From a virus, in the IMG/VR virus record IMGVR_UViG_3300033146_001093, positions 1 through 22,079 of that record: a stretch of 22,079 nt of DNA, one strand, 5' to 3'. The notes beneath the pieces are model-generated. The model made no database searches. It saw only the letters and a list, made by a program, of their open reading frames with translations, and was not told the DNA's origin. Position numbers and translations under genes: made by a program. Below, in pieces: positions 1-18,898 of the stretch (the stretch's first letter is position 1; every line of letters begins with the position of its first letter).

Positions 1-1108
1 TATTACTATTCATGGTGGAGATTCCGTTGGTGATGGTGGCGATGTTAAGATAGAAGGTGGTGAGAGTGATATGGGCGATATAGGAAGGATTTATATAGGT
101 GCTGCGAATACATCAGCTATCTTTTCAAAAAAATCAACATTTCCAACTGGTGTTCCAGACGCAGACGAGGTTTTGTTTATTGATAATAATAATCAAATAA
201 AGAGAGGAAATGTTGATTTAGGTGAACAAGGAGATGTTTACTGGGCAAATGGAAGTCATGGTTCAAATAATCAAATTTTAACTTCTAATGGTGATGGTTC
301 TATTGTTAGCGAATCTATTTTAACATTTACAGGAGGTAATCTTACACCACCTACTCAATCAACTGGATTAGATTTAACAATCATTGGTGGAGAATCAATG
401 GTAGATGATGGTGGCGATTTAAAATTACAAGGTGGTTCACAAAGTGTAAATTTTATGTTTGGTGGAGAAATTATAATGCACGGTGTAGAATCAACTATAG
501 GGAAGGGTGGTGATATTACTATTCATGGTGGAGATTCCGTTGGTGATGGTGGCGATGTTAAGATAGAAGGTGGTGAGAGTGATATGGGCGATATAGGAAG
601 GATTTATATTGGTGCTGAAAATACGTCAGCTATATTTTTAGGGACCACTATATCTATTCCTACAGGTACACCAGATTCAAATGAAATACTTTTTATAGAT
701 ACTAGTGATTCTAATCAATTAAAAAGAGGAACAGTTTCATCAGCAACTGCATCAGATAGAAGATTTAAAGAAAATATAGAAGATATATTATATGGCTTAG
801 ATGCTATTAAAAAATTAGAACCGGTTGAATTTGAATGGAATGAAACTATTAAAAAATTGGATAGTAGAAAAACTGGACATGATATTGGTTTAATTGCACA
901 GGATGTAGAGAAAATATTACCTGATGTAGTTAAACCTATTTATAATGATTATAAATCTGTTGATTATGCAAAATTAACAGTTTATTTAATAGCAGGAATG
1001 AAAGAACAACAAAAAATGATTGATCATCTTATAGCAGGAATGAAAGAACAACAAAAAATGATTGATCATCTTACAAAAGAGATACAAACATTAAAACTAA
1101 ATAAATAA
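1..1108 (+). CDS. Tail fibre / receptor-binding protein, 3' part, with C-terminal peptidase S74 chaperone (partial)
   Basis: The frame is open to the left edge, so the ATG at 71 is probably internal and the gene starts outside the window. The upstream part repeats short Gly-rich units such as GGDVKIEGGES and GGDITIHGGDS, which suggest a beta-helical or beta-roll trimeric shaft. It also contains two versions of a 'PTG.PD..E.LFID....LKRG' segment. From about nt 749 follows a peptidase S74 intramolecular chaperone: ASDRRFKENI, then 'GLIAQDVEKILPDVV' and 'KSVDYAKLTVYLIAGMKEQQ'. In this family the chaperone trimerises the fibre and then cuts itself off just before the Ser of 'SDxRxK'; here Ser is at 752-754 and the catalytic Lys at 767-769, at the usual five-residue spacing. 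The C-terminus is a coiled coil with an exact 14-residue duplication. It is the first gene of the rightward structural block. The family call is firm; the receptor is unknown. Confidence 0.9.
   Translation, partial: ITIHGGDSVGDGGDVKIEGGESDMGDIGRIYIGAANTSAIFSKKSTFPTGVPDADEVLFIDNNNQIKRGNVDLGEQGDVYWANGSHGSNNQILTSNGDGSIVSESILTFTGGNLTPPTQSTGLDLTIIGGESMVDDGGDLKLQGGSQSVNFMFGGEIIMHGVESTIGKGGDITIHGGDSVGDGGDVKIEGGESDMGDIGRIYIGAENTSAIFLGTTISIPTGTPDSNEILFIDTSDSNQLKRGTVSSATASDRRFKENIEDILYGLDAIKKLEPVEFEWNETIKKLDSRKTGHDIGLIAQDVEKILPDVVKPIYNDYKSVDYAKLTVYLIAGMKEQQKMIDHLIAGMKEQQKMIDHLTKEIQTLKLNK
514..609 (+). repeat. Exact 96-nt direct repeat within the tail-fibre gene (other copy at 1-96)
   Basis: Positions 514-609 are identical to 1-96, an offset of 513 nt or 171 codons, so the repeat is in frame. 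Similarity continues past 609 with a few changes. The first copy touches the window edge and may extend further left. It encodes Gly-rich shaft units. Confidence 0.95.
989..1072 (+). repeat. Perfect 42-bp tandem duplication in the fibre chaperone coiled coil
   Basis: Two identical 42-nt units lie at 989-1030 and 1031-1072. Each encodes IAGMKEQQKMIDHL, 14 residues, which is exactly two heptads. The duplication therefore lengthens the C-terminal coiled coil without breaking its phase. Confidence 0.97.
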
Positions 1109-1568: not shown

Positions 1569-3878
1569 ATGACAAATAATATAAATTCATTTAGTCAAAC
1601 AGTAGCAGATTTAACTAGAAGTGTTAATGTTGCATTATCTTCTGTCCAAGGAATGAATGAGACTTTGACAACAGAAAAATCAACAGTCACTGTTGATTTT
1701 GAAGGTGTAGATGAAATAACAGGAGAGAAAAAAATTTTTTCTTATTCTATGCCATCGTATCAATACTCTATAAACGAATTGAACAGGATAAAAAATACAG
1801 TCGATAGATTAATTTCTGGAGACGGTGTAGTGTTATTAAATGATGGGACTTATAGATCTGTGACAACTGTGCCTTTAGCTAAATCTCCTATCCCTATAGA
1901 AAATTTACAAAAACCTACAGAATTTAACTCTAAAAATAATTGGTTTTTTGAAGATTTAATTTTCCCTAAGATTTTAGTAGATTTTAATCTAAAAGGATTT
2001 ATAGATGATAGGTCTGATAGAGTTCAAGTAAAAAGAATTATATTTGATAACAAAGATTTCGACGAAACACAATGGTTCAAAGATAATTTTATTGATCAAA
2101 GTTTTACATATGAAGAAACTATAAATTTATTATCTATTAATAATAAAAAATATTGGGAAGATGATGAAATATTAGATTTACCTTTAAAACCTACTAAATA
2201 CACAGGTAGTTTTGGTGTAATAGATAAAAAAACTATAGATAATAAAGTATGGTATTTTTTAAACACTTTAAGTTATGGAGAAACTAGCGATCTTGAAGTT
2301 ATAAATAATATAGAAATTAAAATAGGAGATCAACTTAGATTTAAAGAAACTTTATATAAAGTAGTTGAAGTTGAATCTTCTGAAAAAAGAGTAAATCTTA
2401 TTTCTACAGTAGGAGTAGCAGAACCTGGCATAGATGGAATATTTTATATATATTCTCCTCCGTTTGAAGAAAAGATTATTTCTATACCAGTTGGTTACGA
2501 TGAATGTGATATAATTTTCATGAAAGGAGTTAATGATGACTTTAATATATTAGCGGATTCTTGGGGATATAATACATCAATATACACTAATGATTTAGTG
2601 TATAACGAAAACAACAGCATGGATCTAGAAAGTTTTTATTTTAAATATGTATCTGATTTCGGAAAACAGCTAGAAAGTCAAGCTAAAGATAGAATAATAC
2701 CATCTATTAATGCAGTAAAACCAGATGCTCCGGAAATCAAACCTGAATTTTTTAAAGTAGAACAAGTAAATAAACAACTAAATGCAGCTTTAGATAAAGA
2801 CGAAATAAAAAATACACAATTTCAGATAGAATCTACTAAATCAGTAATTAATTCATTAAAATCTACAATAGCACAACAGAAAGCAGAACTAGTTGAGTTA
2901 ATTGATCCAGGTTTAAGGAATAATTTACAGGATACTATAGATAATAACATTTCTCAGCTTAGTAAAAAAACAGTAGAATATCAATCTTTAGTTAAATCGT
3001 TATCTACATTAGCTTATGAAAATGATGCAGTATTTGGGTCACTTAAATACAGAACAAGAGGATTTTTTCCTATACCTTTTGGAAAAAGATCTACTACAAA
3101 TGAAGACGAAATACCACAGGAAATAATTCAATTTGAATTGCAATATAGATATCTCAGATTAGATAATACAGGAAATCCTTTAAATACATTTACTTTTGTA
3201 GATCCTTCTACAAATCAAAAAGTAACAGGTACATTTACTGACTGGGTCACAGTTATTTCTCCTATTAGAAATAAAAAATGGGATAAATCATCTGATATGT
3301 ATATCTGGGAAGAAGAAAATATAGGTGATGGAGAAGTTATAAATATAAATCAAGTAGATATTCCTATAACTAAAGGAGAAAAGGTAGAATTTAAAATTAG
3401 ATCTATATCAGAAGCTGGTTGGCCTGCTACTTTAGTTAAATCAGATTGGAGCGATACAGTAATTATAGAATTTCCTGCTAATTTAGTAGGATCAGATCAA
3501 GTTACAAATATTTTATCAGATGCTATATCCGAAGAATCTGATATTAAATTAAACGAAACATTAAATTCTACCGGTGTTCTTACTCATTTAAATGATGGAT
3601 ACCCTAATCCTAATTCTGGCAAAGGTACTTATTTTAAACATCAAGATAGATTCATTTCTCATGATTTAAAGGTAAAGAATATAGAAGGGAATACTATTAA
3701 AGAAGAATCAATAGAATTAAGTACATTCATGGATAATTTGCCATATAATGTATATGTTACAGTAAAGAATCCAAATAGTGCAGAATTAAAAACTGTTTCT
3801 GTACAGGAATTATTTTACAAAATAGTATTGAATGATCCTTCAATTTATGATAGTTTAGAAAACGAAAACGGAAATTAA
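1569..3878 (+). CDS. Putative baseplate/tail structural protein with coiled coil and Fn3-like domain (769 aa)
   Basis: A large protein with no signal peptide or membrane segment. Residues about 1-390 look like mixed alpha/beta structure, rich in Asp, Asn, Ile and Phe. Residues about 400-480 form a probable coiled coil, a Gln/Lys/Ser/Leu-rich run from 'NKQLNAALDKDEIK' to 'YQSLVKSLSTL'. Residues about 515-640 look like an Fn3-type beta sandwich: 'FELQYRYLRLD', then 'DWVTVISPIRNKKWD', then 'KGEKVEFKIRSISEAGWP', ending 'SDWSDTVIIEFP'. The last 120 residues include a 'FKHQDRFISHDLKVKNIEG' segment. It lies between the fibre gene block and the 1592-residue protein, with only 10 nt to the latter. Such architecture fits a virion protein of the baseplate or fibre attachment region. 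The exact role is inferred from position only. Confidence 0.8.
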   Translation: MTNNINSFSQTVADLTRSVNVALSSVQGMNETLTTEKSTVTVDFEGVDEITGEKKIFSYSMPSYQYSINELNRIKNTVDRLISGDGVVLLNDGTYRSVTTVPLAKSPIPIENLQKPTEFNSKNNWFFEDLIFPKILVDFNLKGFIDDRSDRVQVKRIIFDNKDFDETQWFKDNFIDQSFTYEETINLLSINNKKYWEDDEILDLPLKPTKYTGSFGVIDKKTIDNKVWYFLNTLSYGETSDLEVINNIEIKIGDQLRFKETLYKVVEVESSEKRVNLISTVGVAEPGIDGIFYIYSPPFEEKIISIPVGYDECDIIFMKGVNDDFNILADSWGYNTSIYTNDLVYNENNSMDLESFYFKYVSDFGKQLESQAKDRIIPSINAVKPDAPEIKPEFFKVEQVNKQLNAALDKDEIKNTQFQIESTKSVINSLKSTIAQQKAELVELIDPGLRNNLQDTIDNNISQLSKKTVEYQSLVKSLSTLAYENDAVFGSLKYRTRGFFPIPFGKRSTTNEDEIPQEIIQFELQYRYLRLDNTGNPLNTFTFVDPSTNQKVTGTFTDWVTVISPIRNKKWDKSSDMYIWEEENIGDGEVININQVDIPITKGEKVEFKIRSISEAGWPATLVKSDWSDTVIIEFPANLVGSDQVTNILSDAISEESDIKLNETLNSTGVLTHLNDGYPNPNSGKGTYFKHQDRFISHDLKVKNIEGNTIKEESIELSTFMDNLPYNVYVTVKNPNSAELKTVSVQELFYKIVLNDPSIYDSLENENGN

Positions 3879-3888
3879 ATAACAATAC

Positions 3889-6800
3889 ATGAAAACAAAT
3901 TTTCAAGAAAATGGTGAAGTTGTTTTGACTACACAAGAACCTAATGCTATATTGAATTTCGAATACGATGGTAATGATTATATCATTATCCCAGAGATGA
4001 TGGATATTTCTGCTGGAGAATTATATATAAACGGTTTAGATATAAGCAAGGATGCTAGTATTTTTGATGATGCATCACTAGGATATTATTTGAAACTGAA
4101 TAATTATGTAGATCTAGCTTCTTTTCAAATCTATACTAAAAAACTGGGCAAGACAACTTACAATTTGAATTTTATTGTTAAGCATAGTCCTAGTACAGTT
4201 TATTACAAAACCATTAGTGTGTCTGTTTTCAATAGACCTTATATTGTAGATTCTAATACATTAAATATATTAAAAAGTGCAAATAATCAAATAGACAATG
4301 ATACATCATATTTGGTATTAAGGACTAATCCAAAAATATCAGGAAATATAAAATTAGTAATAGATACAAAAGAAAATTTATTTTTTGATACATTTAAGGT
4401 ATCTGATATACTTTCTAATAAGTTATACAGAAAACAGAAGTTATCAGCTAATTCAGTTCTTTCTGGAGACGTGAGGAGGGTATTTTCTTCTCTTCCTGGA
4501 GGAGAAGTGTTTAGATTAGATAACGAAGACACACTAAATATATCTCTACCTAAAACAGAATTAGATAAACAATATAATATGAATTATTCATATGGTTCTA
4601 GGATTTTGAATGATGAACTTTATGACGAGTCATTTAGTATGTTATCCCCTATCTGGATTAATAATAAATTGCCAGATTATTTTGCTTTATTTAGATTAGA
4701 TGGAAAATTCAACGAAGAAACTTATGACCACGGGGATTTAAAAGATCTTGCAACTAAATTTATCACTAATGGAAAATTGTTTAATTCCTATAGTTTAAAA
4801 GAAAAAACAAATTTAGGTACTTATCTTAGAAATCATATATCAGAATTGAATAATATCATAGCTCCTACTTTTATAACATTATCTCCGAAGGAAGAATTTA
4901 ACCCTGATCCTAATACATGGTATGGTATAGCAATAGACAAAGGAATTATAACAGGAAGATCTGAAACTCCGTATTTCTTTAATAAAAAATCTTCTAATTT
5001 TACAGATTTGACTGCATTTACAACTGAGGGCTTCGAAAGATTGAATTTATTATGCCCTAATTTGATAAATTTGGAATATATTTTCGATGATGATGTTGAA
5101 GATTATACAATGCATAGATATTTTGGTTTATATCTAACAGAAAATGCATTATATAATATTTCTTATTATGCAGAAGATCCAGATTCTTCTATAAATATTC
5201 TACAATTAGATGATAAAGATATTAATGATTTTATTGATTCTTCTATTTTTGACACATCAACTGGTGATATTATTGATAATTTATCTAATAGATTATTTAC
5301 TATTAATGATATTGACAAAGTTAAAAGATTTACAAATAAATCGGAAGTAGACGGAGATTCATCTACATTAATAAATGAATGGATAAATAAACCAGGTATT
5401 AATCTATTTTCAGAAAAATCTACTTTAAAAGAATTACCTAAATTTACTTTAATAAAAATAAAAAATTTATTAAGACAAGGTGAACATTTAAGAGTAAATG
5501 ATTTAACTAATAATATTATTTATGAAGTATATGGTATAGATTCATCGATATTAAACCCAGGAGAATCTATAAATTATGCTGCTGAATATGAATCTTATAA
5601 TAAACCTACCGTAAGAAGAAGTATATTTTCTGTAAGCGGTACTATAGAAGATCAGGTTAATGCTATATGGAAAGCATTTAACACTTTCAAAGATTATGAA
5701 GATACCCCATTTGGAGTATACACAAAGGAAAATGATGGTTTATCGATAAAAATCAAAGAAGAATTTAGAAATAATGAATTTAAATTCCAAAGGTTAACAG
5801 CAGATTTTACCGAATATATTTTTGATATATCTACTGGTTTATATGACCCAAATTCTGTATTTAATTCCAATGATAAATTTTCGGATATAGATTTTTATGG
5901 AACACTTGATCCTACTGTAGAAGATTTTGATAGATTAAAATACGATAGTTCGTTTGGCCCCATAAGTTATGAATTATATGGGGATAGAATGAGCATAGAA
6001 ATAGATTTCATAGATACTTCATCTTATTATGTTTATTCATTAAATGAAGATATATCTAAAACCTTTAGAAAATTTATGTTATATCAGGCAGATGATAATT
6101 GGTATCGTTTAATATCTAATTTTGATGTAAGTACAAATAGGGATTGGAATCTAAGATTTTCAGAAGATCCAGAGGAATCTAATAAAATTATATTAATAAC
6201 TAAACATCCAGTTAATACTATAAATTATATATTTAACGGGTATTCTGTTTATCCTCTTAATTTATCCTTGATGGGCATAAATCCTGTCAAAGATTTTGAT
6301 ACAACTGTTTATGATTCATCTACAAATGGAATGAATTTTAAATCAGAATATTGGTATAAACGAGAAGGAGATTTAGATATTACAAAAATAACAATACCTG
6401 AAAATACAATCTATACTTTATCTCATGAGGATAATTTTATAATTGAATCAGGCGAAGGTAGTATATATTTCCAAGGTGAACCCTTCAAAACATATTCAGT
6501 GGGGTTTCCTTTTAATACATTTTTAAAATCAGCAGAAATTTCAACTACCACTGAAACTACAATATCAAAAGGAATCCAAGACGGATCAGCTAATTTTTAT
6601 TCATATAATGACAATTATTCAGAAGAATATTTAAAAGATTATTATTTAGATTATGACGGCTCTACATTCGATGGATCAAAAAAATTAAAATATGGATTAA
6701 CTATACCTACTAATATAAAATGGTCTGGTTTAGGTTTTGATTGTAGAGGAAATGATATAAGATTAAATTTAGATTCTTCTATTTTAGATCCATCTATACA

Positions 6801-8667
6801 TTCTACTTTTATACCTAGCCCTAGTGAATTCTCTGATGAAATTTTTTATCCATCATATAAATATTTTACTCCCGGTGATAGGAATTGGAAAGATTATGTT
6901 TATTTTGATATAAATGATTCTGTTGAAACTGTGAAAGATGGTATAATAAAATATTACACATTTAAGGAATTGCTTTTAAATGAACCATATGTAGATATAT
7001 TTTCTAAATTTATGTATTTTAATAAAGATGCAAATGAAACTATAACTCGTTCATCTATAACTTATTACAACAATTTCAAGAATACTATTGATACTATTTT
7101 AAATGGTTTAAATATCTCTATCTCTATTAATGAAAATGCTCAAAATACATTAGATATACAAGATTGGGATAGATTTAGAATATCAGCAGTGTCTATATCA
7201 TCAAGAAATAGAGACAATGTTAAACCTATAGAAGTAATAATCAACGAAAATACTAAAACTATATTAATTATATGGTACCAGGGTAATGATGTCTTGAATT
7301 ATAACCTAAGACATTCTTCTACTGTATTGGGCAAAAGTCTTTTAGATCCTGATAGTATTTCTTTTTGGGATCCTGTTTATTTTAAAAGTTTTAATGACTC
7401 TAGTATTTATAATTATTACAAAACTCCATTTGGTGTCAATACTGCAGCTATTTCTACTAATATTTTCCATATGTATGACAATAAAGTAGATTTATCCGAT
7501 GTATCAATAAATACACAGAAATTTTTACAATTGAATTTAAACGAAGGAGATAATTTATTTTCAGTATTTAGTGCATATCATAATAACGATGTTGTTGGTT
7601 CTGGATTTCAATTTGACAGATCGTTCGATACATTTAAACGATATTATTCTTATACGTATTTTAAAAATGCTGCTACATATGGACCTAATGTAAATAATAT
7701 GCCATTTACTTATAATAATAATATTAATTATTATAAAGATAAAACTACACAATATAATTTGTTAGAAGATATATTCCGAACTAATAATATAGAATATTTT
7801 ATTTTAAAGGACAATGAAATTATAAATAATAATATGTTTTCCTATGCTCCAGTTAAGATAAAAATAAATAAAGCCAGAGAATATGAAGGGATAAAAACTA
7901 ATAATGGTTGGTTTAGACCTATGTTTAAAAATATATTAAATTTTTCTAGCAATGAATCTGATATCATTTTAAATACAACAAAAATAGATTTTATATTAGG
8001 TAATACTAGCTTAGAAACATATAATAATATCCAACAACTATGGTATAATAAGATAGTATCAACAGTTACAGAAAATGATGTATCTGTTGCAAATGCTATT
8101 TATTATAAAGAAGATTATAATCCTTTTTATTCGCAATGGGACAGTGGATATTATCAACTAGATAATAATCCAACAGATGGATATAATTCAATAGTTGAAA
8201 TGCCTAGTTATTTTGGTTCTAAATTGCCTAAATTGCCTAAAGAATTAATATTAGATTCTTGGACTGCTTCTACAACATCTGAAGAATATGGTATAGATAG
8301 ATTAACTATGAAATTTAATTTAACAAAAACGATTATTAATATTTTCAAAGAGAACTCTGTTTTTATAAATAATTGGTCGGGTTTACCTCAACAGAACGAT
8401 GTTATAATAGATGGATATATAAAACAAACAGTATTAGAATCTTATAACATAAGAAAGTCTTTGATTAAAATTGAATTATATACAAAAGATTACGATGGAA
8501 ATGGCAACAAATTAGCATTTACTTTAGATAATTCATTTGACTTAAATACAAAAGCAAATATAGATGGAGAATTATTATATATTAATAATGAATATATTTA
8601 TAATATTAATACAACGCTAATACCAGAATTAATATATTTTGTAAAAATAACTTTATTTGAGAAATAA
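3889..8667 (+). CDS. Giant tail/baseplate structural protein of unknown fold (1592 aa)
   Basis: This is the largest gene in the window. No catalytic motif, signal peptide or membrane segment is visible. The N-terminal 130 residues look like one or two beta-sandwich domains ('NAILNFEYDGNDYIIIPEM', 'TYNLNFIVKHSPSTVYYKT'), followed by 'LVLRTNPKISGNIKLVIDT', which I associate with large uncharacterised structural proteins of Bacteroidota phages. The rest is very rich in Asn, Asp, Ser, Tyr and Phe, with many short 'DSS', 'DTSTG' and 'DPS' motifs, consistent with a beta-rich extracellular protein. Its stop is 2 nt before the ATG of the next gene, so the two are probably translated together. A role in the baseplate or as a long tail fibre is likely from size and neighbours. 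I cannot assign a named T4 counterpart. Confidence 0.8.
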   Translation: MKTNFQENGEVVLTTQEPNAILNFEYDGNDYIIIPEMMDISAGELYINGLDISKDASIFDDASLGYYLKLNNYVDLASFQIYTKKLGKTTYNLNFIVKHSPSTVYYKTISVSVFNRPYIVDSNTLNILKSANNQIDNDTSYLVLRTNPKISGNIKLVIDTKENLFFDTFKVSDILSNKLYRKQKLSANSVLSGDVRRVFSSLPGGEVFRLDNEDTLNISLPKTELDKQYNMNYSYGSRILNDELYDESFSMLSPIWINNKLPDYFALFRLDGKFNEETYDHGDLKDLATKFITNGKLFNSYSLKEKTNLGTYLRNHISELNNIIAPTFITLSPKEEFNPDPNTWYGIAIDKGIITGRSETPYFFNKKSSNFTDLTAFTTEGFERLNLLCPNLINLEYIFDDDVEDYTMHRYFGLYLTENALYNISYYAEDPDSSINILQLDDKDINDFIDSSIFDTSTGDIIDNLSNRLFTINDIDKVKRFTNKSEVDGDSSTLINEWINKPGINLFSEKSTLKELPKFTLIKIKNLLRQGEHLRVNDLTNNIIYEVYGIDSSILNPGESINYAAEYESYNKPTVRRSIFSVSGTIEDQVNAIWKAFNTFKDYEDTPFGVYTKENDGLSIKIKEEFRNNEFKFQRLTADFTEYIFDISTGLYDPNSVFNSNDKFSDIDFYGTLDPTVEDFDRLKYDSSFGPISYELYGDRMSIEIDFIDTSSYYVYSLNEDISKTFRKFMLYQADDNWYRLISNFDVSTNRDWNLRFSEDPEESNKIILITKHPVNTINYIFNGYSVYPLNLSLMGINPVKDFDTTVYDSSTNGMNFKSEYWYKREGDLDITKITIPENTIYTLSHEDNFIIESGEGSIYFQGEPFKTYSVGFPFNTFLKSAEISTTTETTISKGIQDGSANFYSYNDNYSEEYLKDYYLDYDGSTFDGSKKLKYGLTIPTNIKWSGLGFDCRGNDIRLNLDSSILDPSIHSTFIPSPSEFSDEIFYPSYKYFTPGDRNWKDYVYFDINDSVETVKDGIIKYYTFKELLLNEPYVDIFSKFMYFNKDANETITRSSITYYNNFKNTIDTILNGLNISISINENAQNTLDIQDWDRFRISAVSISSRNRDNVKPIEVIINENTKTILIIWYQGNDVLNYNLRHSSTVLGKSLLDPDSISFWDPVYFKSFNDSSIYNYYKTPFGVNTAAISTNIFHMYDNKVDLSDVSINTQKFLQLNLNEGDNLFSVFSAYHNNDVVGSGFQFDRSFDTFKRYYSYTYFKNAATYGPNVNNMPFTYNNNINYYKDKTTQYNLLEDIFRTNNIEYFILKDNEIINNNMFSYAPVKIKINKAREYEGIKTNNGWFRPMFKNILNFSSNESDIILNTTKIDFILGNTSLETYNNIQQLWYNKIVSTVTENDVSVANAIYYKEDYNPFYSQWDSGYYQLDNNPTDGYNSIVEMPSYFGSKLPKLPKELILDSWTASTTSEEYGIDRLTMKFNLTKTIINIFKENSVFINNWSGLPQQNDVIIDGYIKQTVLESYNIRKSLIKIELYTKDYDGNGNKLAFTLDNSFDLNTKANIDGELLYINNEYIYNINTTLIPELIYFVKITLFEK

Positions 8668-8669
8668 CA

Positions 8670-9974
8670 ATGAATAAAACATATAAAAATAAATTCAAAT
8701 ATAGCCCAGGGATGCTCGGTTACGGTGTTAATGGTATACAAGGAGAAAGAGGGTTATTGGGTATGTCGTTATATATTTCTAATTACAGCGGCAGTGAAGA
8801 CAACTCCATTATAAGAAATAGAATTATCAATAATGAATCTTTGTTAACTTTATCTATTAATAAAATACCAGGATATCCGTATAGAGTTTATAAAAATGAT
8901 GATTTATTTATTGATAAAAAGGGAAATTTATATAAAATAGACTTCTCTGATTCTGATTTATATACACCTTATTTATGTAGTGGTGGCTCTCAGTGTAATT
9001 TGGGATTTGAGAATTTATTTATAGATGGGCCTATACAAACAGAGAATCCAAAATTCTCTAAATATATTAATGAATTCCAGGAAGAACATATTTTAATAGA
9101 TACAGTTTATTCAAATAAAATATCAACTTATATTGATAATAATACTATTTATGATAATTCAATAATTCAATATGGTAATGTTTTTTTAATAGATCAAAGT
9201 ATAGCAGATATAACTAATAATTCCAGACCATATAATATATGGAATACTCTGAATGATATATTAGCTATGTCACGTTCTAGTGATAACACTTGGAGCTTAG
9301 GTAAAAAAACAGAAGAGATAATAGATAATATTGATTTAGCTTTAGATTTTAGTAATGTTACTTTAAATGACATAAGCACTAATAAATTATCTACTAATAC
9401 CATAACGACAGATGATATTAATGTAGAATTAGATGCATTTATATTGGGAGATGCTAGTTTAGAAAGTAATGTAACTATTGGACAAGATGATATAATTCAA
9501 TCTGTTTATTTAGTCAAATCTTATTTACCTGTCAGGATATACAAAAATTCTACAAATACTGAAATGCCTATAGTACCTAGTGGTATTTATCCAGAGAAAG
9601 GTACAGTTATTACTAATTCAGAAATAAAGTTGGATAGAATGTTTGATGGAATTTTTATAGAAAATCCTCCATCATTTACGGCTATTTCTTCAACAGGAAA
9701 TCTTGTTATACAGTGGATCAAAACTGATTTCTTCAATACAAACATACCGGCTGAACTTAATAATTATAAAATGAGTTTGCATATATCAAAAATAAAAGAA
9801 TCTAATAATTATGATTTTGAAATAAAAGAAAAAGAAACTATAATTGAAGAAATGAATGACTCTGGTACAATAACAATCACTGATGTAGAATTACATTCTA
9901 CATATAATATAAATTTCGAATTTCAATATAACGGCTGGGTCATTATTAGTGATATAAAAACTGTCACTATTTAA
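8670..9974 (+). CDS. Tail protein with collagen-like N-terminus and C-terminal Fn3-like domain (434 aa), paralogue of the next gene
   Basis: The N-terminus has 'KYSPGMLGYG' followed by about four Gly-X-Y triplets (GVNGIQGERGLLG), a short collagen-like segment that may hold a trimer together. A middle domain contains 'NRIINN...DDLFIDKKGNLYKIDFSD' and 'IDGPIQTENPKFSKYI'. Residues about 340-434 resemble an Fn3 domain ('PPSFTAISSTGNLVIQWIK' to 'HSTYNINFEFQYNGWVI'). The protein lines up with the first ~435 residues of the next gene over its whole length: shared 'PG(M/L)(L/V)G(Y/F)G', 'YDN(S/T)(I/V)(I/M)QYG' and 'GTVITN(S/T)EI'. It starts 2 nt after the giant gene's stop, suggesting translational coupling. 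Most likely a fibre or baseplate decoration protein. Its function is not established. Confidence 0.82.
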   Translation: MNKTYKNKFKYSPGMLGYGVNGIQGERGLLGMSLYISNYSGSEDNSIIRNRIINNESLLTLSINKIPGYPYRVYKNDDLFIDKKGNLYKIDFSDSDLYTPYLCSGGSQCNLGFENLFIDGPIQTENPKFSKYINEFQEEHILIDTVYSNKISTYIDNNTIYDNSIIQYGNVFLIDQSIADITNNSRPYNIWNTLNDILAMSRSSDNTWSLGKKTEEIIDNIDLALDFSNVTLNDISTNKLSTNTITTDDINVELDAFILGDASLESNVTIGQDDIIQSVYLVKSYLPVRIYKNSTNTEMPIVPSGIYPEKGTVITNSEIKLDRMFDGIFIENPPSFTAISSTGNLVIQWIKTDFFNTNIPAELNNYKMSLHISKIKESNNYDFEIKEKETIIEEMNDSGTITITDVELHSTYNINFEFQYNGWVIISDIKTVTI

Positions 9975-10016: not shown

Positions 10017-12710
10017 ATGGACGATAAATTATTTCAATATGCACCGGGTTTAGTAGGATTTGGCTCCGAAGGTAAAGATGGCTCTTCTGGAGAAACTGGA
10101 CTTTCGTTTTATTTTTCTACATACGATGGGCTACAAGAAATCGCTATAATTAAATCAAAAATAGACATAAATATTCAATTAAACGAGAATGGTCAAAATT
10201 TACCTGATAATAGATCTTATATTTCTGGTGATACATTTTTAGACGTGAATGGAAGAATTTTTGAAATAGATTTGTCTCTGGGAAATAGATACAAAAATAC
10301 AGGAATGGCTTTAAATAGCACTAGTATATTTGAAGCAGGACCTACTCAATCTTCATCACCTGGCTTTACAAGATACAGTAATCTATATAAAACTGATAAA
10401 ATATTAATTGATTCAATTTATGGAAATGACCCTAATAGTATAAATATTTACACTAATTATCCTGATAAAATCTATGATAATACTGTAATGCAATATGGCA
10501 AAATCAATTTTATAAATGATGATATAGTTACAGATTTAAATAATGTATTTTTATTTAATGTATGGTCTACTGGATTAACTAATGATGATGCAATAGCATT
10601 AGTGAAAGAAGGAGCTAATAATATTTGGCATTTAGGCAACAAGGAAAACGTATCAGATGCAAATTCTAGAAATATTCAACTTGACCTGGATTTTCAAAAA
10701 ATACAAATAACCCATGATTTAAGTGTAAATAACAATATTGATGTCAAATCACAAACAACTACATATAATTTAACTGTTAGGAATGATGCTGTAATTGAAG
10801 GAGATTTAGATGTTGTAAAAAATGTAACTATAGGTGTACCTGGCAACTTAACAGATAAAGTAAATAGTTACTCTCAGATAGAAATTGATAAAGGAACATT
10901 ATTAAATCCTTTGAATAAAGTAACTCAATCTTCTCCGTCTGGAACAGTAATAACTAACACAGAAATAAATACAGGTTTATTATTTGATACTAAATTTGAT
11001 CCTAAACCATCATCATTTAATGTATCAAGAACATTTCCTAGTACTATACAAGTTAGTTGGGATAAGGCTGATTTTTTAAACGAAATTTTCCCACCTATCA
11101 TAAGCCAATATAAAGCTTCATTATATATACTTGCGCCACAAGATAATTCTACTATAATTAGCTTTACTGATTCTAATTTTAAACCTTTAGTAATATCTGA
11201 TTTAGATCAAAGTGGAACTATTGATGTTTCTGCTCTAGATCCTGCTGTTAATTATAAAGTTTATATAGAATTTTCTTTTAATGGGTGGAAAAGAAGATCA
11301 GAGACTGATATTATATTTTCTGCTTATCCTACTAATTTTTCATATACTGCACTAGATTCAAATGACCAAACATTAACCGTTAATTCTGGTAACTCATGGA
11401 CAGCCACAGCTGACCAGACTTGGATTAATCAATCTATGCTAGGAGGCACAGGTATTCAAACTATGGATGTATCTGTTGATAGAAATTATACCATAGTACC
11501 ACGTTCTGGCACTATAACTTTAGACGAAACAGGCACATCAGTGCCAGATATTATAATAAATATATCACAAGATGCTTCATTATATATGACAGTTAGTAAT
11601 GATAATTTAAATGCGCCTGGAACTGCATCTAGCATTGACATTTCTGTTTATTCTAATACTAGCAATTTAGCTTTAACTAATGTTCCTGCTTGGATAACTC
11701 CTACTTTAAGTTCTACTACTGGTGATGCTAATCTAAACTTGAATATATCATTAAATCCAGATGGAGATGATACAAGAAACACAGCATTCCAAATCACAGG
11801 TAACGATGTTCCTAATATCGTTATCGATTTATTACAAGCAGAAGGTCCTGATACTTTAACAGTAATTCCTACATCTCTGAATTTTGATGTATCATCAAAT
11901 GAAAGTCAAGTTATTGCTATTACTACAAATAACGATACATACAATGTAGTAGAAAATGATCCAACAGATAGTTACTTAGTAAGTCCTATAGGAAATGTTG
12001 CATCAGGTACTAATATAACAGTTACGACTAAGAATGATAACATCTCATTAACTGAAAAAGATTCATCTATTGTAATAACAGCAGGAACTCAAACACAGAT
12101 AGTTACATTTAATCAATTAAACGAAGATCCTAGTCTTATAATCACTGAAAGTACTATTATGGTCCCATCAACTGTAAATATAGAAGATATATTTACATTT
12201 AGTATAATTTCTAATACATCAGGAGTTGTTACAGTGACACAAAATGGAGTACCTAGTAAACAAGTTATATCTGATTGGTATCCTAAAACATTTGATAATG
12301 ATACTAATATCACATTTGAAATATTTAACAATTCTGGTAGTACCAGAAGATATGCTTCATTTGATGCAAGTGCATTAATAGAAGGAATAGTATACAAAGA
12401 CACAGTAAATATTATCCAATATGCTGATGATGATAATTATATATCAGTTACACCCCAGGATAATTATATAGATGATAATGGAGGAGATTTAGATTTTTCT
12501 ATTAATGTAAACGGAACTGAATTTAATTGGACGGCTACAGCATCAGAACCTACCGCAATAACATTTACTGATGGTTCTTCAGGTTCAGGTGATTTAGCTG
12601 ACTATACAATAACTGTTAGTAAAAATCTTTCAGGATCAAGTAGAAATATATTTATAACATTTGACTCAGAAACTGAATCAGATACAATAACTATTAACCA
12701 AGGAACTTAA
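10017..12710 (+). CDS. Tail protein with collagen-like N-terminus, Fn3-like domain and about five tandem BACON-like domains (897 aa)
   Basis: Residues 1-435 are a paralogue of the preceding protein: 'QYAPGLVGFG', four Gly-X-Y triplets (GSEGKDGSSGETG), a shared middle domain and an Fn3-like domain ('PSSFNVSRTFPSTIQVSWDK' to 'VNYKVYIEFSFNGWKRR'). From about residue 437 to the end there are roughly five beta-sandwich repeats of about 85-100 residues, starting near 437, 520, 610, 703 and 803. The first is a clear BACON type: 'NSGNSWTATADQTWINQ', 'VDRNYTIVPRSGTITL', 'DIIINISQDA'. The others keep the pattern of a W or Y core, a Thr/Asn-rich strand and a final '(I/V)xxxQ' strand. BACON domains are typical of Bacteroidota surface proteins and also occur in phages of that phylum, where carbohydrate or mucin binding is proposed. 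Likely a host- or glycan-binding virion protein. Confidence 0.85.
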   Translation: MDDKLFQYAPGLVGFGSEGKDGSSGETGLSFYFSTYDGLQEIAIIKSKIDINIQLNENGQNLPDNRSYISGDTFLDVNGRIFEIDLSLGNRYKNTGMALNSTSIFEAGPTQSSSPGFTRYSNLYKTDKILIDSIYGNDPNSINIYTNYPDKIYDNTVMQYGKINFINDDIVTDLNNVFLFNVWSTGLTNDDAIALVKEGANNIWHLGNKENVSDANSRNIQLDLDFQKIQITHDLSVNNNIDVKSQTTTYNLTVRNDAVIEGDLDVVKNVTIGVPGNLTDKVNSYSQIEIDKGTLLNPLNKVTQSSPSGTVITNTEINTGLLFDTKFDPKPSSFNVSRTFPSTIQVSWDKADFLNEIFPPIISQYKASLYILAPQDNSTIISFTDSNFKPLVISDLDQSGTIDVSALDPAVNYKVYIEFSFNGWKRRSETDIIFSAYPTNFSYTALDSNDQTLTVNSGNSWTATADQTWINQSMLGGTGIQTMDVSVDRNYTIVPRSGTITLDETGTSVPDIIINISQDASLYMTVSNDNLNAPGTASSIDISVYSNTSNLALTNVPAWITPTLSSTTGDANLNLNISLNPDGDDTRNTAFQITGNDVPNIVIDLLQAEGPDTLTVIPTSLNFDVSSNESQVIAITTNNDTYNVVENDPTDSYLVSPIGNVASGTNITVTTKNDNISLTEKDSSIVITAGTQTQIVTFNQLNEDPSLIITESTIMVPSTVNIEDIFTFSIISNTSGVVTVTQNGVPSKQVISDWYPKTFDNDTNITFEIFNNSGSTRRYASFDASALIEGIVYKDTVNIIQYADDDNYISVTPQDNYIDDNGGDLDFSINVNGTEFNWTATASEPTAITFTDGSSGSGDLADYTITVSKNLSGSSRNIFITFDSETESDTITINQGT

Positions 12711-12721
12711 TTTAATTCAAT

Positions 12722-13492
12722 ATGAAAAAATATATACAACCTATAATAATTATTATAATATTAATAGTATTATTTTCTTTGTGGCAACGTAATAGAACAT
12801 TAAATTCTAAAATTAAAACACATCAAAATAATATAGAAGTATTAAATGATACTATAACTACTATTAAATTGAGGAACGGAGATTTAGAATCTTCAGTTCT
12901 TGGATTTAAAGCAAATGCTAAAGAATTAAAAGATTATAATGATAAATTAGCTAAACAGGTCAAAAAGGAAAAGGGTAAAGTAATTACTTTAAATAATATA
13001 GTTTTTACTTTAAATCAAAATTTAACTGATTTAAACCAATATATAGATTCTTTGCAATCTATATTTGATAAACCTACTCAAATCAATGATTCGCTTTGGG
13101 TTATCAAATGGACATTGCCTTATTATTACAATGATGATAATTATGATATTTATTCAGGGTCTACTTATATTACAGTTAATGGTAAATTAGAATGCATAAA
13201 AAATATCAAATTAAATCATAAATTTACAGAATTAACAAACAGAGATTCTAAAATGACATTAACATGGGGTCAGAAATACGAAGACGGTAGAGTTCATATA
13301 TTTGCAAGAACTTCTCATCCTGCATTCCAAGCACAATTATTAGAAGGAACATACGTAGATTATCCTAAAAAAAGACATTGGTTTACTGGTTTCGGTATAG
13401 GTCCTAATTTTACACTAGGGTATGATTTTGTAAATAGCAAATCAGCTGCAATATTAGGCATCGGAATACAATACAATATTTATCAATGGTAA
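12722..13492 (+). CDS. Membrane-anchored coiled-coil protein, possible spanin-like or lysis-related protein (256 aa)
   Basis: Residues about 4-21 are a strong N-terminal transmembrane segment rich in Ile (IQPIIIIIILIVLFSLW), with Lys before it and Arg after it, giving an N-in, C-out topology. Residues about 25-115 are a long coiled coil ('RTLNSKIKTHQNNIEVLND' to 'LNQYIDSLQSIFDK'). A compact domain follows ('DSLWVIKWTLPYYYNDDN'), then a C-terminal run of alternating aromatic/Gly strands ('HWFTGFGIGPNFTLGYDF', 'AAILGIGIQYNIYQW') that resembles an outer-membrane strand pair. An inner-membrane anchor, periplasmic coiled coil and C-terminal membrane-contact segment fit a spanin that links both membranes at lysis. 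That is inference; no recognised spanin motif is visible. It lies among virion genes, 11 nt after the BACON gene. Confidence 0.72.
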   Translation: MKKYIQPIIIIIILIVLFSLWQRNRTLNSKIKTHQNNIEVLNDTITTIKLRNGDLESSVLGFKANAKELKDYNDKLAKQVKKEKGKVITLNNIVFTLNQNLTDLNQYIDSLQSIFDKPTQINDSLWVIKWTLPYYYNDDNYDIYSGSTYITVNGKLECIKNIKLNHKFTELTNRDSKMTLTWGQKYEDGRVHIFARTSHPAFQAQLLEGTYVDYPKKRHWFTGFGIGPNFTLGYDFVNSKSAAILGIGIQYNIYQW

Positions 13493-13512: not shown

Positions 13513-15165
13513 ATGGCAACTAATATATCAAAATACGTAAGTTTAAATGACTTCATTTTATTAGAATACGAATTTAACAAATCAGAAGAACATACAGAAT
13601 TAACTTCTAAGAATATAAAATCGTATATAGCTAATACTATTTTTAATGATAAGCAATACTTTAATATGTATAGCCAGGGTTATTTGAATAATGATCTTCA
13701 TTTAAATTCTCTTCCTGTATTAGAAAATAAGTCTCAGTGGTTTATAAACCCTGATGATACTACTGAATATTGGGATTTTTTCCAATCTTATAGTTTAATA
13801 AATCAATCGTCATATCCGTTTGATACTATTAAAATTCACGTAGAGTCTGGGTATAATTTTGATGATATATCAGGTTTTCTGTTACAAGTAAAAGCAGAAG
13901 ACGTTTCTAGTAATCTTGTAACGCTTTCTAATTTTACTTGGATTAATCAAGTACAAGGAACAGATGTTCTTAAATTTAGCAATAATAATTTATTTTTAGC
14001 TGGTAAATACTATGATAAGTATATAGAATTAAAAGTGCCATCTGTTCAAAAACTAGGTGGCAGTTCTTTAGCACCTATAGAACAGGCACTAATGATTAAA
14101 CCTCTTTCTGATATATTTTTGGAATTTAATATTATACCAGAAATTGATGATACTAAATATATTATACAAAATAGAATAGAATTACAATTACCTGTTTCAT
14201 CTAATGCAGATAATTTTAATGCATTTATTTCAGAAAGCACTGAAGGTGATTATATTGAATTTTATGCTACATGGAAAGATTCTATTATTGGTAACTATAT
14301 CGGTGATATAGAAAGTGGCCGAATTAAATTATTTACATCTAGCGATCCTAATGATAATTATGATAATTTTGTAGATTTATACGGTAATACTAATAAATGG
14401 ATAGTTATGCATGAAATTTATTTATATGAACATATACCCGGTAGTTCTATACTCACTCAGCAGTATGTATTCTCTCAAGATGATAATTTCAATACAGCTA
14501 ATTATTTTAGACCTATTATAAGATATGCTGACGTAGCTTCATCGTATACTATTGATTATGTATGTAGATTGACTAATAGAATGGACGGAACACAAATAAT
14601 AAGGAAAGCTAGTTTTGCTTCTGTTGATCCTAAAAAATACGGCAAGAAATTACAATCGCTGAATGTAGATAATATGGCTTCATATAAAATATTCAATCGT
14701 ATCGACGGCGATACAGCTCCACGGATCATGTATAACGAAGATGCTAAGGTTCAATATGTTAAAGTGTTCTATGATACCACAAACATATACCTAAATATGA
14801 ATAATGAAGTGATGCCTCAAGGTACTGGAGCTTTGTATTTGAAACAATCAGATGGATTTTATAAATTTTCATTCAAAAAAGTAAATGAAAATAATAATGA
14901 AGAATTTGTTAATGTAGACTTATCTGGAGCTTATCAATATTCGTTTACTGTCAAATTAGATAATGGAACAAAGATAGAAATAAATCCATCATTTTCCGAG
15001 AATATGAATTTAGTGATAGGAGAAATAGAATTTAAAATCACAGAAGAACAGAGTGAGATGTTAAGAAACCAGTCTACTAACATTTACTCTATTGTTATTA
15101 AGAATACAAATGGAACTACTTATACTCTTTATCAAGGAAAGTATTATGATATAAGCAAAAAATAA
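13513..15165 (+). CDS. Putative tail/virion structural protein (550 aa)
   Basis: I do not recognise the family. The protein is soluble with no signal peptide or membrane segment and has the same Asn/Asp/Tyr-rich, beta-prone composition as the tail proteins upstream. Visible blocks include 'ISKYVSLNDFILLEYEFNKS' at the N-terminus, a beta-rich middle ('DNFNAFISESTEGDYIEFYA', 'YIGDIESGRIKLFTSSDP') and a C-terminal domain with 'SYKIFNRIDGDTAPRIMYNE' and 'GEIEFKITEEQSEMLRNQ'. It is the last gene of the rightward block. Its stop codon lies inside the stem of the terminator it shares with the opposing gene. A virion role is inferred from composition and position. Confidence 0.78.
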   Translation: MATNISKYVSLNDFILLEYEFNKSEEHTELTSKNIKSYIANTIFNDKQYFNMYSQGYLNNDLHLNSLPVLENKSQWFINPDDTTEYWDFFQSYSLINQSSYPFDTIKIHVESGYNFDDISGFLLQVKAEDVSSNLVTLSNFTWINQVQGTDVLKFSNNNLFLAGKYYDKYIELKVPSVQKLGGSSLAPIEQALMIKPLSDIFLEFNIIPEIDDTKYIIQNRIELQLPVSSNADNFNAFISESTEGDYIEFYATWKDSIIGNYIGDIESGRIKLFTSSDPNDNYDNFVDLYGNTNKWIVMHEIYLYEHIPGSSILTQQYVFSQDDNFNTANYFRPIIRYADVASSYTIDYVCRLTNRMDGTQIIRKASFASVDPKKYGKKLQSLNVDNMASYKIFNRIDGDTAPRIMYNEDAKVQYVKVFYDTTNIYLNMNNEVMPQGTGALYLKQSDGFYKFSFKKVNENNNEEFVNVDLSGAYQYSFTVKLDNGTKIEINPSFSENMNLVIGEIEFKITEEQSEMLRNQSTNIYSIVIKNTNGTTYTLYQGKYYDISKK

Positions 15166-15190
15166 AAGGACTAATTAAAGTCCTTTTATT
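15161..15190. terminator. Bidirectional hairpin terminator between the convergent blocks
   Basis: AATAAAAGGAC (15161-15171) and GTCCTTTTATT (15180-15190) are perfect 11-bp complements around an 8-nt loop. The A-run on one side and T-run on the other allow intrinsic termination in both directions. The stop codon of the rightward gene (15163-15165) lies in one arm and the stop of the leftward gene (15175-15177) in the loop. Confidence 0.88.
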
Positions 15191-15648
15191 AATTCTAAAA
15201 TATTAAATTTATTAAATGCTACTATGATAGATATCCATAAAGCTAATCTATACAAAACCCACTTAAGTGATAATCTTTTGAAAGCAAATTTATACACTAA
15301 ACCATATTTTAATGTAGGTAGATTATTTTCGTCATAGAATTCACTAACTTCTGGAACTAAATAATCAGCAAAACCTAAATCTTCGTCTAAGTACCTATTT
15401 ATAGGTGCCATTAACTCCAATACTTTCATTTTCTTTATCTCCTCAGGTAATACTTTTTCTTCATCTTTAAGAGAGATGACAGTATAAATAACATAAAAAA
15501 TATTATTGCTAAAATCGAATTTGTTATATTTAGATAACGGATTTGATTTTTCTTCTTTTATAACACTAATCCATTTGCTGTAATTTGATAAATCTCTTAT
15601 TATATTAAAAGAAAAGTACGATTTTAGCTTAGCTATAAATTTCATCAT
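15175..15648 (-). CDS. Small protein with C-terminal membrane segment, overlapping the sigma factor gene (157 aa)
   Basis: Unrecognised. The first ~125 residues look cytoplasmic and mostly helical ('NYSKWISVIKEEKSNPLS', 'LELMAPINRYLDEDLGFADY', 'PEVSEFYDENNLPTLKYGLV'). Residues about 131-148 (WVLYRLALWISIIVAF) are a likely single membrane segment preceded by Lys/Arg, followed by a short tail. The gene overlaps the end of the sigma factor gene by 20 nt (15629-15648), so the two are almost certainly translated from one transcript. Genes coupled directly to ECF sigma factors in bacteria are often membrane-anchored anti-sigma factors, which makes that role worth testing, but the sequence shows no recognisable anti-sigma domain. 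A phage structural or assembly role is equally possible. Confidence 0.72.
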   Translation of the reverse strand: MMKFIAKLKSYFSFNIIRDLSNYSKWISVIKEEKSNPLSKYNKFDFSNNIFYVIYTVISLKDEEKVLPEEIKKMKVLELMAPINRYLDEDLGFADYLVPEVSEFYDENNLPTLKYGLVYKFAFKRLSLKWVLYRLALWISIIVAFNKFNILELIKGL

Positions 15649-16249
15649 AATATGATTCTATTAATTTCTTGTTAGTTTTTTTAATTTTCTTCGCCACATC
15701 TAATTTAGCCTTTCTTAATCTAGTTTTTACTGTAGAAATATTCCAATCTAGATCTTTTGCTATATCTTGCAGTTTTTTATTATTTAATTCTCTTTCAATC
15801 ATAACAGTTTTATATGGTTCATCTAGAGAATTTATAACTTTTACAGTTTCTTTATAAAGAGATACAAATACATCTTCTTTATTATCTATTAATTCTATAT
15901 TGATATTATCAATAGGAGAATATAATTTCAAAAGTTTACTATGATTTTCTGTTAACATCTCATGAGAAATAGTTTTATTGCTTTCTTTGATAAAATGTAA
16001 ACATTCATTTTTAGCTATAGCATAAACCCATGTTGAAAAATTAAACTTTGTGTTATATTGTTCTATCTTTTCCCATACAGTTATGAAAGTTTTAGATACA
16101 ACATCGTTCGCATTATCTCTATCTTCTAAAAATCTATATACAAAAGAATTTAGACCTGGTTTAAGTCTATCTAATAAAATACTAAATGTTTTCTCATTTT
16201 TATTCTCAACAAAATCCATTGCGATTCGTTGTATTGTCTTTTTTGCCAT
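15629..16249 (-). CDS. ECF-like sigma-70 family RNA polymerase sigma factor (206 aa)
   Basis: Region 2 spans about residues 21-88: 'FLEDRDNANDVVSKTFITVW', followed by 'FNFSTWVYAIAKNECLHFI', the ECF pattern of core-binding and -10 recognition helices. After a linker of about 45 residues, region 4 spans about 132-190 with a helix-turn-helix at about 157-182 ('NKKLQDIAKDLDWNISTVKT', 'RLRKAKLDVAKKI'). Region 3 is absent and the length is right for an ECF sigma factor. In T4 the late genes are read by the small sigma factor gp55; here this protein is the obvious candidate for redirecting host RNA polymerase to phage late promoters. That role is inference. A terminator lies directly upstream and the gene overlaps the next one by 20 nt. 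Confidence 0.92.
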   Translation of the reverse strand: MAKKTIQRIAMDFVENKNEKTFSILLDRLKPGLNSFVYRFLEDRDNANDVVSKTFITVWEKIEQYNTKFNFSTWVYAIAKNECLHFIKESNKTISHEMLTENHSKLLKLYSPIDNINIELIDNKEDVFVSLYKETVKVINSLDEPYKTVMIERELNNKKLQDIAKDLDWNISTVKTRLRKAKLDVAKKIKKTNKKLIESYYDEIYS

Positions 16250-18567: not shown

Positions 18568-18588
18568 AATATGTAATTTAGTATTTTA

Positions 18589-18596
18589 CAAATATA
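18589..18596 (-). promoter_or_regulatory. Bacteroidota-type -7 box (TATATTTG) between the tmRNA terminator and the 89-aa gene
   Basis: The minus strand reads TTATATTTGTAAAATAC, nearly the same as the box at 16942-16949 (shared TTATATTTGTAA). It lies 21 nt before the ATG and just downstream of the tmRNA terminator, where a new promoter is needed. No clear -33 element is visible. Confidence 0.55.
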
Positions 18597-18615
18597 ATAA
18601 AAATAATTTAATTAT

Positions 18616-18649
18616 AAAAATCTGGACAGATTTTAAATCTGCCCAGATT
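18616..18649 (-). terminator. Strong intrinsic terminator of the tmRNA gene
   Basis: On the minus strand AATCTGGGCAGATT (18649-18636) pairs with AATCTGTCCAGATT (18632-18619) over 14 bp with one G-U pair and a 3-nt loop, followed by a T-run (TTTTT, 18620-18616). It lies about 20 nt after the tag stop region and shows that the coding piece is the 3' end of the transcript. Confidence 0.93.
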
Positions 18650-18670
18650 ACATTTCGTTAAGTCAACGTC

Positions 18671-18703
18671 TTACGCTGCCATTAACATTTCTTGGTTGTT
18701 TGC
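18671..18703 (-). other. tmRNA proteolysis-tag reading frame, peptide ANNQEMLMAA
   Basis: After AATAAAC the resume codon GCA starts GCA AAC AAC CAA GAA ATG TTA ATG GCA GCG TAA. Together with the alanine carried by the tmRNA this gives a tag ending in Met-Ala-Ala. The AN(N/D) start and hydrophobic-Ala-Ala end are typical of ssrA tags recognised by ClpXP-type proteases. Confidence 0.93.
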
Positions 18704-18770
18704 GTTTATTAAAACACCTATTAAATCATTCGATAAAGCCTCAGATTACTTGTCAAATCCGGTCATCCCC

Positions 18771-18785
18771 ATATATTTAAAGTTG
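18771..18785 (-). other. Intervening segment of the permuted tmRNA precursor
   Basis: An A/T-rich spacer of about 15 nt joins the 3' end of the acceptor piece to the 5' end of the coding piece. In known two-piece tmRNAs such a segment is removed to expose the 3' acceptor end and the 5' G. RNase P would be expected to cut before GGGG at 18770. Confidence 0.75.
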
Positions 18786-18898
18786 TGGAGATGCAGGGAA
18801 TCGAACCCTGGTCCAATATAACATCCTCATTATTATAGTTACCTAACAGATAACAGATTTAATTATTCTTTATATCTTTATTTTTCTAATAGTTTTAT

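Follow-up and report, generated by a model that had tools for sequence, protein, structure and literature searches.

A tandem array of BACON-type units on a putative tail protein of a huge-phage lineage related to the Lak megaphages

The 22,079-base virus fragment analyzed here, referred to as the window, encodes a protein of 897 amino acids whose residues 435 to 897 form a tandem array of five β-rich units of 86 to 101 residues each. Units U1, U2, and U5 are classified as BACON domains by sequence profile, and U3 and U4 are probably BACON units as well, as suggested by a shared strand signature and its spacing. A sequence-only reading of the same DNA had proposed about five tandem BACON-like units, and this count holds; the region it indicated is right, but its start at nucleotide 11325 lies two codons inside the array, which begins at nucleotide 11319 and runs for 463 residues to nucleotide 12707, up to the stop codon. 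The protein is, judging from its gene neighborhood, probably a tail-fibre or baseplate-attached protein. The favored interpretation, with chances that are about even, is a trimeric, exchangeable attachment fibre with multivalent weak attachment to a host-surface glycan. The protein and its tandem paralogue show the following features.

8670 to 9974, plus strand: 434-aa tandem paralogue (copy A), anchor and FN3-like domain without the array
10017 to 12710, plus strand: ORF of the 897-aa slot protein (copy B), paralogue of 8670 to 9974, with the BACON array
10017 to 10916, plus strand: anchor region, residues 1 to 300, from the alignment of copies
10062 to 10106, plus strand: collagen-like (Gly-X-Y)5 N-terminal stretch, residues 16 to 30
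10917 to 11318, plus strand: FN3-like domain, residues 301 to 434, from a Pfam fn3 match below the cut-off and Foldseek
11319 to 11576, plus strand: U1, BACON domain, residues 435 to 520, from PF13004, PF19190, and 3zmr
11577 to 11846, plus strand: U2, BACON-like unit, residues 521 to 610, from the relatives-only HMM and the strict signature
11847 to 12128, plus strand: U3, probable BACON-like unit, residues 611 to 704, from the relaxed signature (K for R) and the HMM
12129 to 12431, plus strand: U4, probable BACON-like unit and the least certain, residues 705 to 805, from the relaxed signature, with the HMM not significant
12432 to 12707, plus strand: U5, BACON domain forming the C terminus of the protein, residues 806 to 897, from PF13004 and the HMM

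The Pfam BACON family PF13004 has a gathering cut-off of 25 bits, which the whole 897-aa protein passes with 26.9 bits. U1 alone scores 28.0 bits, above the cut-off, and 26.4 bits with BACON_2 (PF19190), which agrees with its earlier description as a clear BACON domain. Among solved structures, U1 is closest to the cellulase 3zmr (E 5.3e-6), which we take to be BoGH5A of Bacteroides ovatus, followed by the sulfatase 9s8x (E 0.0053). U5 is borderline for PF13004, with 24.3 bits alone and 25.4 bits together with its neighbors, and U2, U3, and U4 give no PF13004 match as single units, so that the Pfam search bears out the first unit, marginally the last, and none of the three between them. A relatives-only HMM, built from the BACON domains of five relatives and controlled with 2000 shuffles of each unit, gives 39.7 bits for U1, 26.6 for U5, and 16.9 for U2, with none of the 2000 shuffles as good in each case. 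U3 reaches 6.6 bits, a score equaled by 19 of 2000 shuffles, and the 2.4 bits of U4 are not significant (389 of 2000 shuffles equally good). U1 as the sole BACON domain is rejected, since U2 and U5 pass the shuffle controls. The array therefore contains at least two BACON units in tandem, with U1 and U2 adjoining and U5 at the end.

The C-terminal strands of the units show a common signature, R/K-x3-h-x-h-x(6,14)-h-x-h-x-Q, derived from U1, U5, and the BACON domains of the five relatives. In the alignment of these sequences the W, the R, and the final Q are invariant; the W is missing from U3. The strict form matches U1, U2, and U5, U4 is matched once Ala is allowed, and U3 is matched once Lys may stand for Arg, both widenings having been adopted once U3 and U4 had already been inspected. 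The relaxed signature occurs once per unit in all five units and is absent from residues 1 to 434, with the last-strand Gln at positions 518, 607, 700, 801, and 895 (spacing of 89, 93, 101, and 94). In each of the three signature forms, the strict one included, none of 20,000 shuffled arrays reaches the observed count. In real proteins of the relatives the relaxed signature is commoner than in shuffles, with 0.32 occurrences per 463 aa in a redundant background of ORFs of at least 250 aa that includes the slot proteins.

The units are only 14 to 25% identical to one another, with weak pairwise alignments, and a recent duplication of array units is rejected on this identity. With 57 D/E versus 12 K/R and a pI of 4.05, the array is strongly acidic; it contains no Cys. 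Close relatives of the array itself were found in none of the viral contigs, phages, and genome contigs searched, and the search against plasmids gave one weak match only (E 0.3). The AlphaFold model of the array consists entirely of strands with a mean pLDDT of 34.7 and shows no usable fold; this includes U1, and the poor model therefore says nothing against U3 and U4. For the full-length protein the mean pLDDT is 46.8, with fair confidence for residues 30 to 100 of the anchor.

In front of the array, the protein shares its organization with the other proteins of the same gene slot. The glycines at positions 16, 19, 22, 25, and 28 of the (Gly-X-Y)5 stretch are invariant in all 18 aligned slot copies, and the first ∼240 residues, the anchor proper, are common to all of them. 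Residues 301 to 434 miss the gathering cut-off of Pfam fn3 (PF00041) with 14.4 bits versus 25, and their best Foldseek matches are mostly FN3 domains with a top E of 1.1e-3, for which reason this region is labeled FN3-like only. Copies A and B of the window are 34% identical (E 3e-49), and copy A ends after the FN3-like domain. A Peptidase_S74 chaperone is absent from the 897-aa protein in the Pfam scan.

The slot lies within a conserved tail cassette, whose members in the window are listed here together with the fibre at the left edge.

2 to 1108, plus strand: C terminus of a tail fibre with S74 chaperone, truncated at the edge of the window (Peptidase_S74, 63 bits; PHROG tail fibre families)
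1569 to 3878, plus strand: conserved cassette gene, 769 aa, phrog_29329
3889 to 8667, plus strand: conserved cassette gene, 1592 aa, directly upstream of the slot
12722 to 13492, plus strand: conserved cassette gene, 256 aa, weak Rz-like spanin match, directly downstream of the slot
13513 to 15165, plus strand: conserved cassette gene, 550 aa

Eleven distinct relatives (L020, L038, L039, L040, L041, L043, L044, L045, L047, L048, and L051) enter the synteny count, which is restricted to those whose contig includes all or part of the slot gene; near-duplicates are merged, namely, L039 with L031/L032/L054 (two near-identical contigs), L040 with L034, L041 with L033, and L045 with L050. As far as the contigs reach, the gene order in all 11 is the 769-aa gene, the 1592-aa gene, one or two slot proteins, and the 256- and 550-aa genes. 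The two downstream neighbors are present in 11/11 relatives, and the 1592-aa gene lies immediately upstream in 10 of them, L043 being cut on that side. L051 has a gene homologous to the 141-aa gene of the window that separates the slot from the 256-aa gene, and L033/L041 and L034/L040 carry an additional ORF between the 256- and 550-aa genes. In L045/L050 (positions 200 to 2535) the 769-aa gene is split into a 389-aa and a neighboring 380-aa ORF, which meet at residues 390/394 of the window's 769-aa protein.

Most slot proteins contain the FN3-like domain, and their ends differ. Among the 17 copies from relatives scanned with Pfam (L043A partial; BACON counted at an E of ≤1e-3), BACON ends are found in five, L031A (= L039A), L034A, L034B, L043A, and L047A, and weak BACON signals are found in L044A and L048. 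One end each is PKD_6 (L033, 980 aa, 108 bits), Ig_7 (L033, 999 aa, 65 bits), and Peptidase_S74 (L020, 55 bits, on the same anchor), and the remaining 7/17 copies have no end recognized by Pfam. With the relatives-only HMM, L044A seemingly has a pair of BACON-like units, scoring 14.5 and 14.9 bits. Beyond the BACON domain, L039A, L040A, L043A, and L047A continue for another ∼165 to 200 residues. In the whole-record search of 15 related records, all five BACON matches sit in slot proteins, and in a 260-kb record the sole BACON match likewise falls in the slot protein. The location of the slot proteins on the virion is derived from synteny. Since L020 carries an S74 chaperone on this anchor, the slot proteins most likely belong to the fibre class; the conserved tail cassette and this chaperone agree with the tail setting that the sequence-only reading had proposed.

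The L020 protein (7328 to 9139) is a single slot protein that joins the anchor to GGDG-type repeats and the S74 chaperone. These repeats and the chaperone resemble the first ORF of the window (2 to 1108), a pattern suggestive of recombination between two tail proteins. A BLAST comparison of the S74 fibre of the window with five slot proteins gave no match, which conflicts with a match obtained in another comparison; the latter is relied on here.

In a tree built from residues 1 to 240, both window copies fall with L020, L038, and L051 (support of 100/99), three relatives that have neither BACON nor an FN3-like match, and are separate from the relatives with BACON. The 434-aa copy forms a long branch whose exact place is unsure; in the tree of residues 300 to 434 the two window copies again stand together (95/91). 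Grouping of the 897-aa copy with a six-row BACON group that includes L044A, a group named only after the tree had been seen, is rejected by the AU test (P of 6e-7), and with it common descent of the array and the relatives' BACON domains as far as the anchor is concerned. BACON requires three changes on the anchor tree at the Pfam threshold of an E of ≤1e-3, with L043A, whose contig does not include the anchor, left out. Judged from these trees, the array and the BACON domains of the relatives probably had independent origins; alternatively, the BACON end alone may have been swapped in by recombination. Either history, separate gain or recombination swap, implies that the end of the slot is exchangeable.

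The sequences of the 769-aa and portal proteins assign the window to a huge-phage lineage akin to the Lak megaphages. The nearest named phages for these two proteins are the Lak megaphages of Prevotella (37% and 41 to 42% identity) together with uncultured huge phages of 462 to 735 kb, followed by phages of Tenacibaculum, Chryseobacterium, Flavobacterium, and Sphingomonas. The portal is 64 to 74% identical in 17 IMG/VR loci, homologues of the 550-aa protein occur in 20 loci with 27 to 59% identity, and the largest related IMG/VR contig measures 405 kb.

The proposed mechanism begins at the N terminus, where the (Gly-X-Y)5 stretch would trimerize the 897-aa protein, as is suggested by the occurrence of such a stretch at a phage fibre N terminus. 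The conserved anchor of ∼240 residues would attach the protein to the tail in the vicinity of the 1592-aa protein, followed by the FN3-like domain and an interchangeable distal module. In the window this module would consist of the five BACON-type β-sandwiches up to the C terminus, so that the array itself forms the tip and a trimer displays up to 15 BACON-type domains. Such an array would most likely make many weak, reversible contacts with envelope glycans of a Bacteroidota host and thereby keep the virion in place during engagement of a specialized receptor-binding fibre, for example, the S74 fibre at the left edge of the window. Adhesion to a capsule or a host-associated surface by this putative adhesin array is possible. 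The higher epithelial adherence reported for phage K1F displaying BACON/Ig proteins (PMC13370021) speaks for an attachment fibre. The filling of the same slot by BACON, PKD_6, Ig_7, or S74 also counts in favor of an attachment fibre, and the lack of BACON on the nearest anchors (L020, L038, and L051) counts against it. Most of the named relatives have hosts among the Bacteroidota (Prevotella, Tenacibaculum, Chryseobacterium, and Flavobacterium), which argues for attachment to such a host, and Sphingomonas phage PAU, a named relative with a non-Bacteroidota host, argues against it. The acidity of the array does not favor binding to an acidic glycan.

The main rival to glycan attachment, though a somewhat unlikely one, is a passive spacer, in which the BACON units bind nothing and serve just to extend the fibre, and binding takes place elsewhere, for example, in a protein docked at the tip. 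The identity of the best solved match of U1, 3zmr, fits a spacer: PMC9853417 reports that the BACON domain of BoGH5A bound no tested substrate, and PMC6949934 and PMC11216935, the latter listing 3zmr as a BACON structure, term BACON a linker or spacer. Direct carbohydrate binding by BACON is described as unproven in PMC6949934 (de Jonge 2019). The stretches that follow BACON in four relatives would also give a spacer something to present, but in the window the last unit is the end of the protein and leaves nothing in the same protein to hold out, since the array stops two residues after the last-strand Gln. The 434-aa paralogue, moreover, exists without any spacer. Sticking of the array to a non-host surface such as mucus or particle polysaccharide, which would keep the phage near the habitat of its host, is quite improbable; it draws on a 2026 study in which phage K1F displaying gut-phage proteins with BACON, PKD, or Ig-like domains showed higher epithelial adherence and greater retention in the mouse gut (PMC13370021), and it is countered by the gut relative Lak-A1, which has no BACON in 541 kb.

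The composition of the array itself allows a further reading, in which BACON identity is limited to U1 and U5, with generic Ig-like domains in the positions of U2 to U4. Pfam detection of BACON in U1 and U5 only, the failure of the HMM to separate U4 from shuffles, and the mixture of BACON with PKD and Ig_7 in the slots of the relatives are consistent with a mixed Ig-like array of this kind. It is nevertheless unlikely, since U2 beats 2000/2000 shuffles with a profile made from BACON domains only and one evenly spaced signature is common to all five units. A more far-reaching proposal, to which little probability is given, regards the slot as a permanent docking position of huge-phage tails that has repeatedly and independently been given unrelated surface-binding modules, with the 434- and 897-aa copies forming mixed trimers. 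If this were true, the phage could tune its stickiness via the ratio of the naked 434-aa copy to the BACON-loaded 897-aa copy.

Tail-associated BACON arrays are already known from gut phages, and the window is a new, informative example. PMC6949934 describes tandem repeats of five or six units in two lineages and of eight units in crAssphage, compared to five here; like the window array, crAssphage gp64 and the arrays of de Jonge 2019 are tandem BACON units beside tail genes in phages of, or related to those of, Bacteroidota. The window lineage, as placed by two proteins, is nearest to Lak and other huge phages. Unlike crAssphage gp64, the window array is carried by a (Gly-X-Y)5/FN3-like anchor, the protein has a tandem paralogue, and the divergent units show no sign of recent duplication. 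The modular adhesins described in PMC13370021 show the same mixture of BACON, PKD, and Ig domain types near structural genes of Bacteroidota phages, in that case Crassvirales and Flandersviridae-related phages, whereas the variants described here share one defined huge-phage tail slot. The BACON domain of 3zmr, the closest solved sequence to U1, differs from the window array as a single unit preceding an enzyme on the bacterial cell surface. The slot proteins of Lak MK250016 (375 and 1271 aa, with TAG read as Q) resemble those of the window in gene order, Gly-X-Y N terminus, and organization as a tandem pair adjoining the 1592-aa homologue; neither gives a Pfam match, and no BACON is found in the whole 541-kb genome. 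A search of open-access PMC for BACON combined with jumbo phage/Bacteroidetes or with Lak/megaphage/tail fiber gave no report of the slot. With the window, the known range of BACON arrays on tail proteins comes to include a huge-phage lineage akin to the Lak megaphages. The slot variants of the relatives are natural swaps on one anchor for asking whether phage BACON binds or spaces, and a single genome holds the same anchor with and without the BACON stack.

Two further loci in the window are observed outside the cassette. A permuted tmRNA gene (18580 to 18875, minus strand; Rfam RF04321, 81.1 bits at 18671 to 18843) lies beside the portal gene, with the ARAGORN tag ANNQEMLMAA. ARAGORN gives a permuted tmRNA in 8/15 related loci, 3 of which stop short of the portal side. 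One paper is said to mention a permuted tmRNA together with a phage, in a methylophage. An ECF-like sigma factor is encoded at 15629 to 16249 on the minus strand (Sigma70_r2, 54.5 bits; Sigma70_r4_2, 35.5 bits), followed by a small protein without a Pfam match (15175 to 15648, minus strand), which at a guess might be an anti-sigma factor. Homologues of both the sigma factor and its small partner occur in several relatives.
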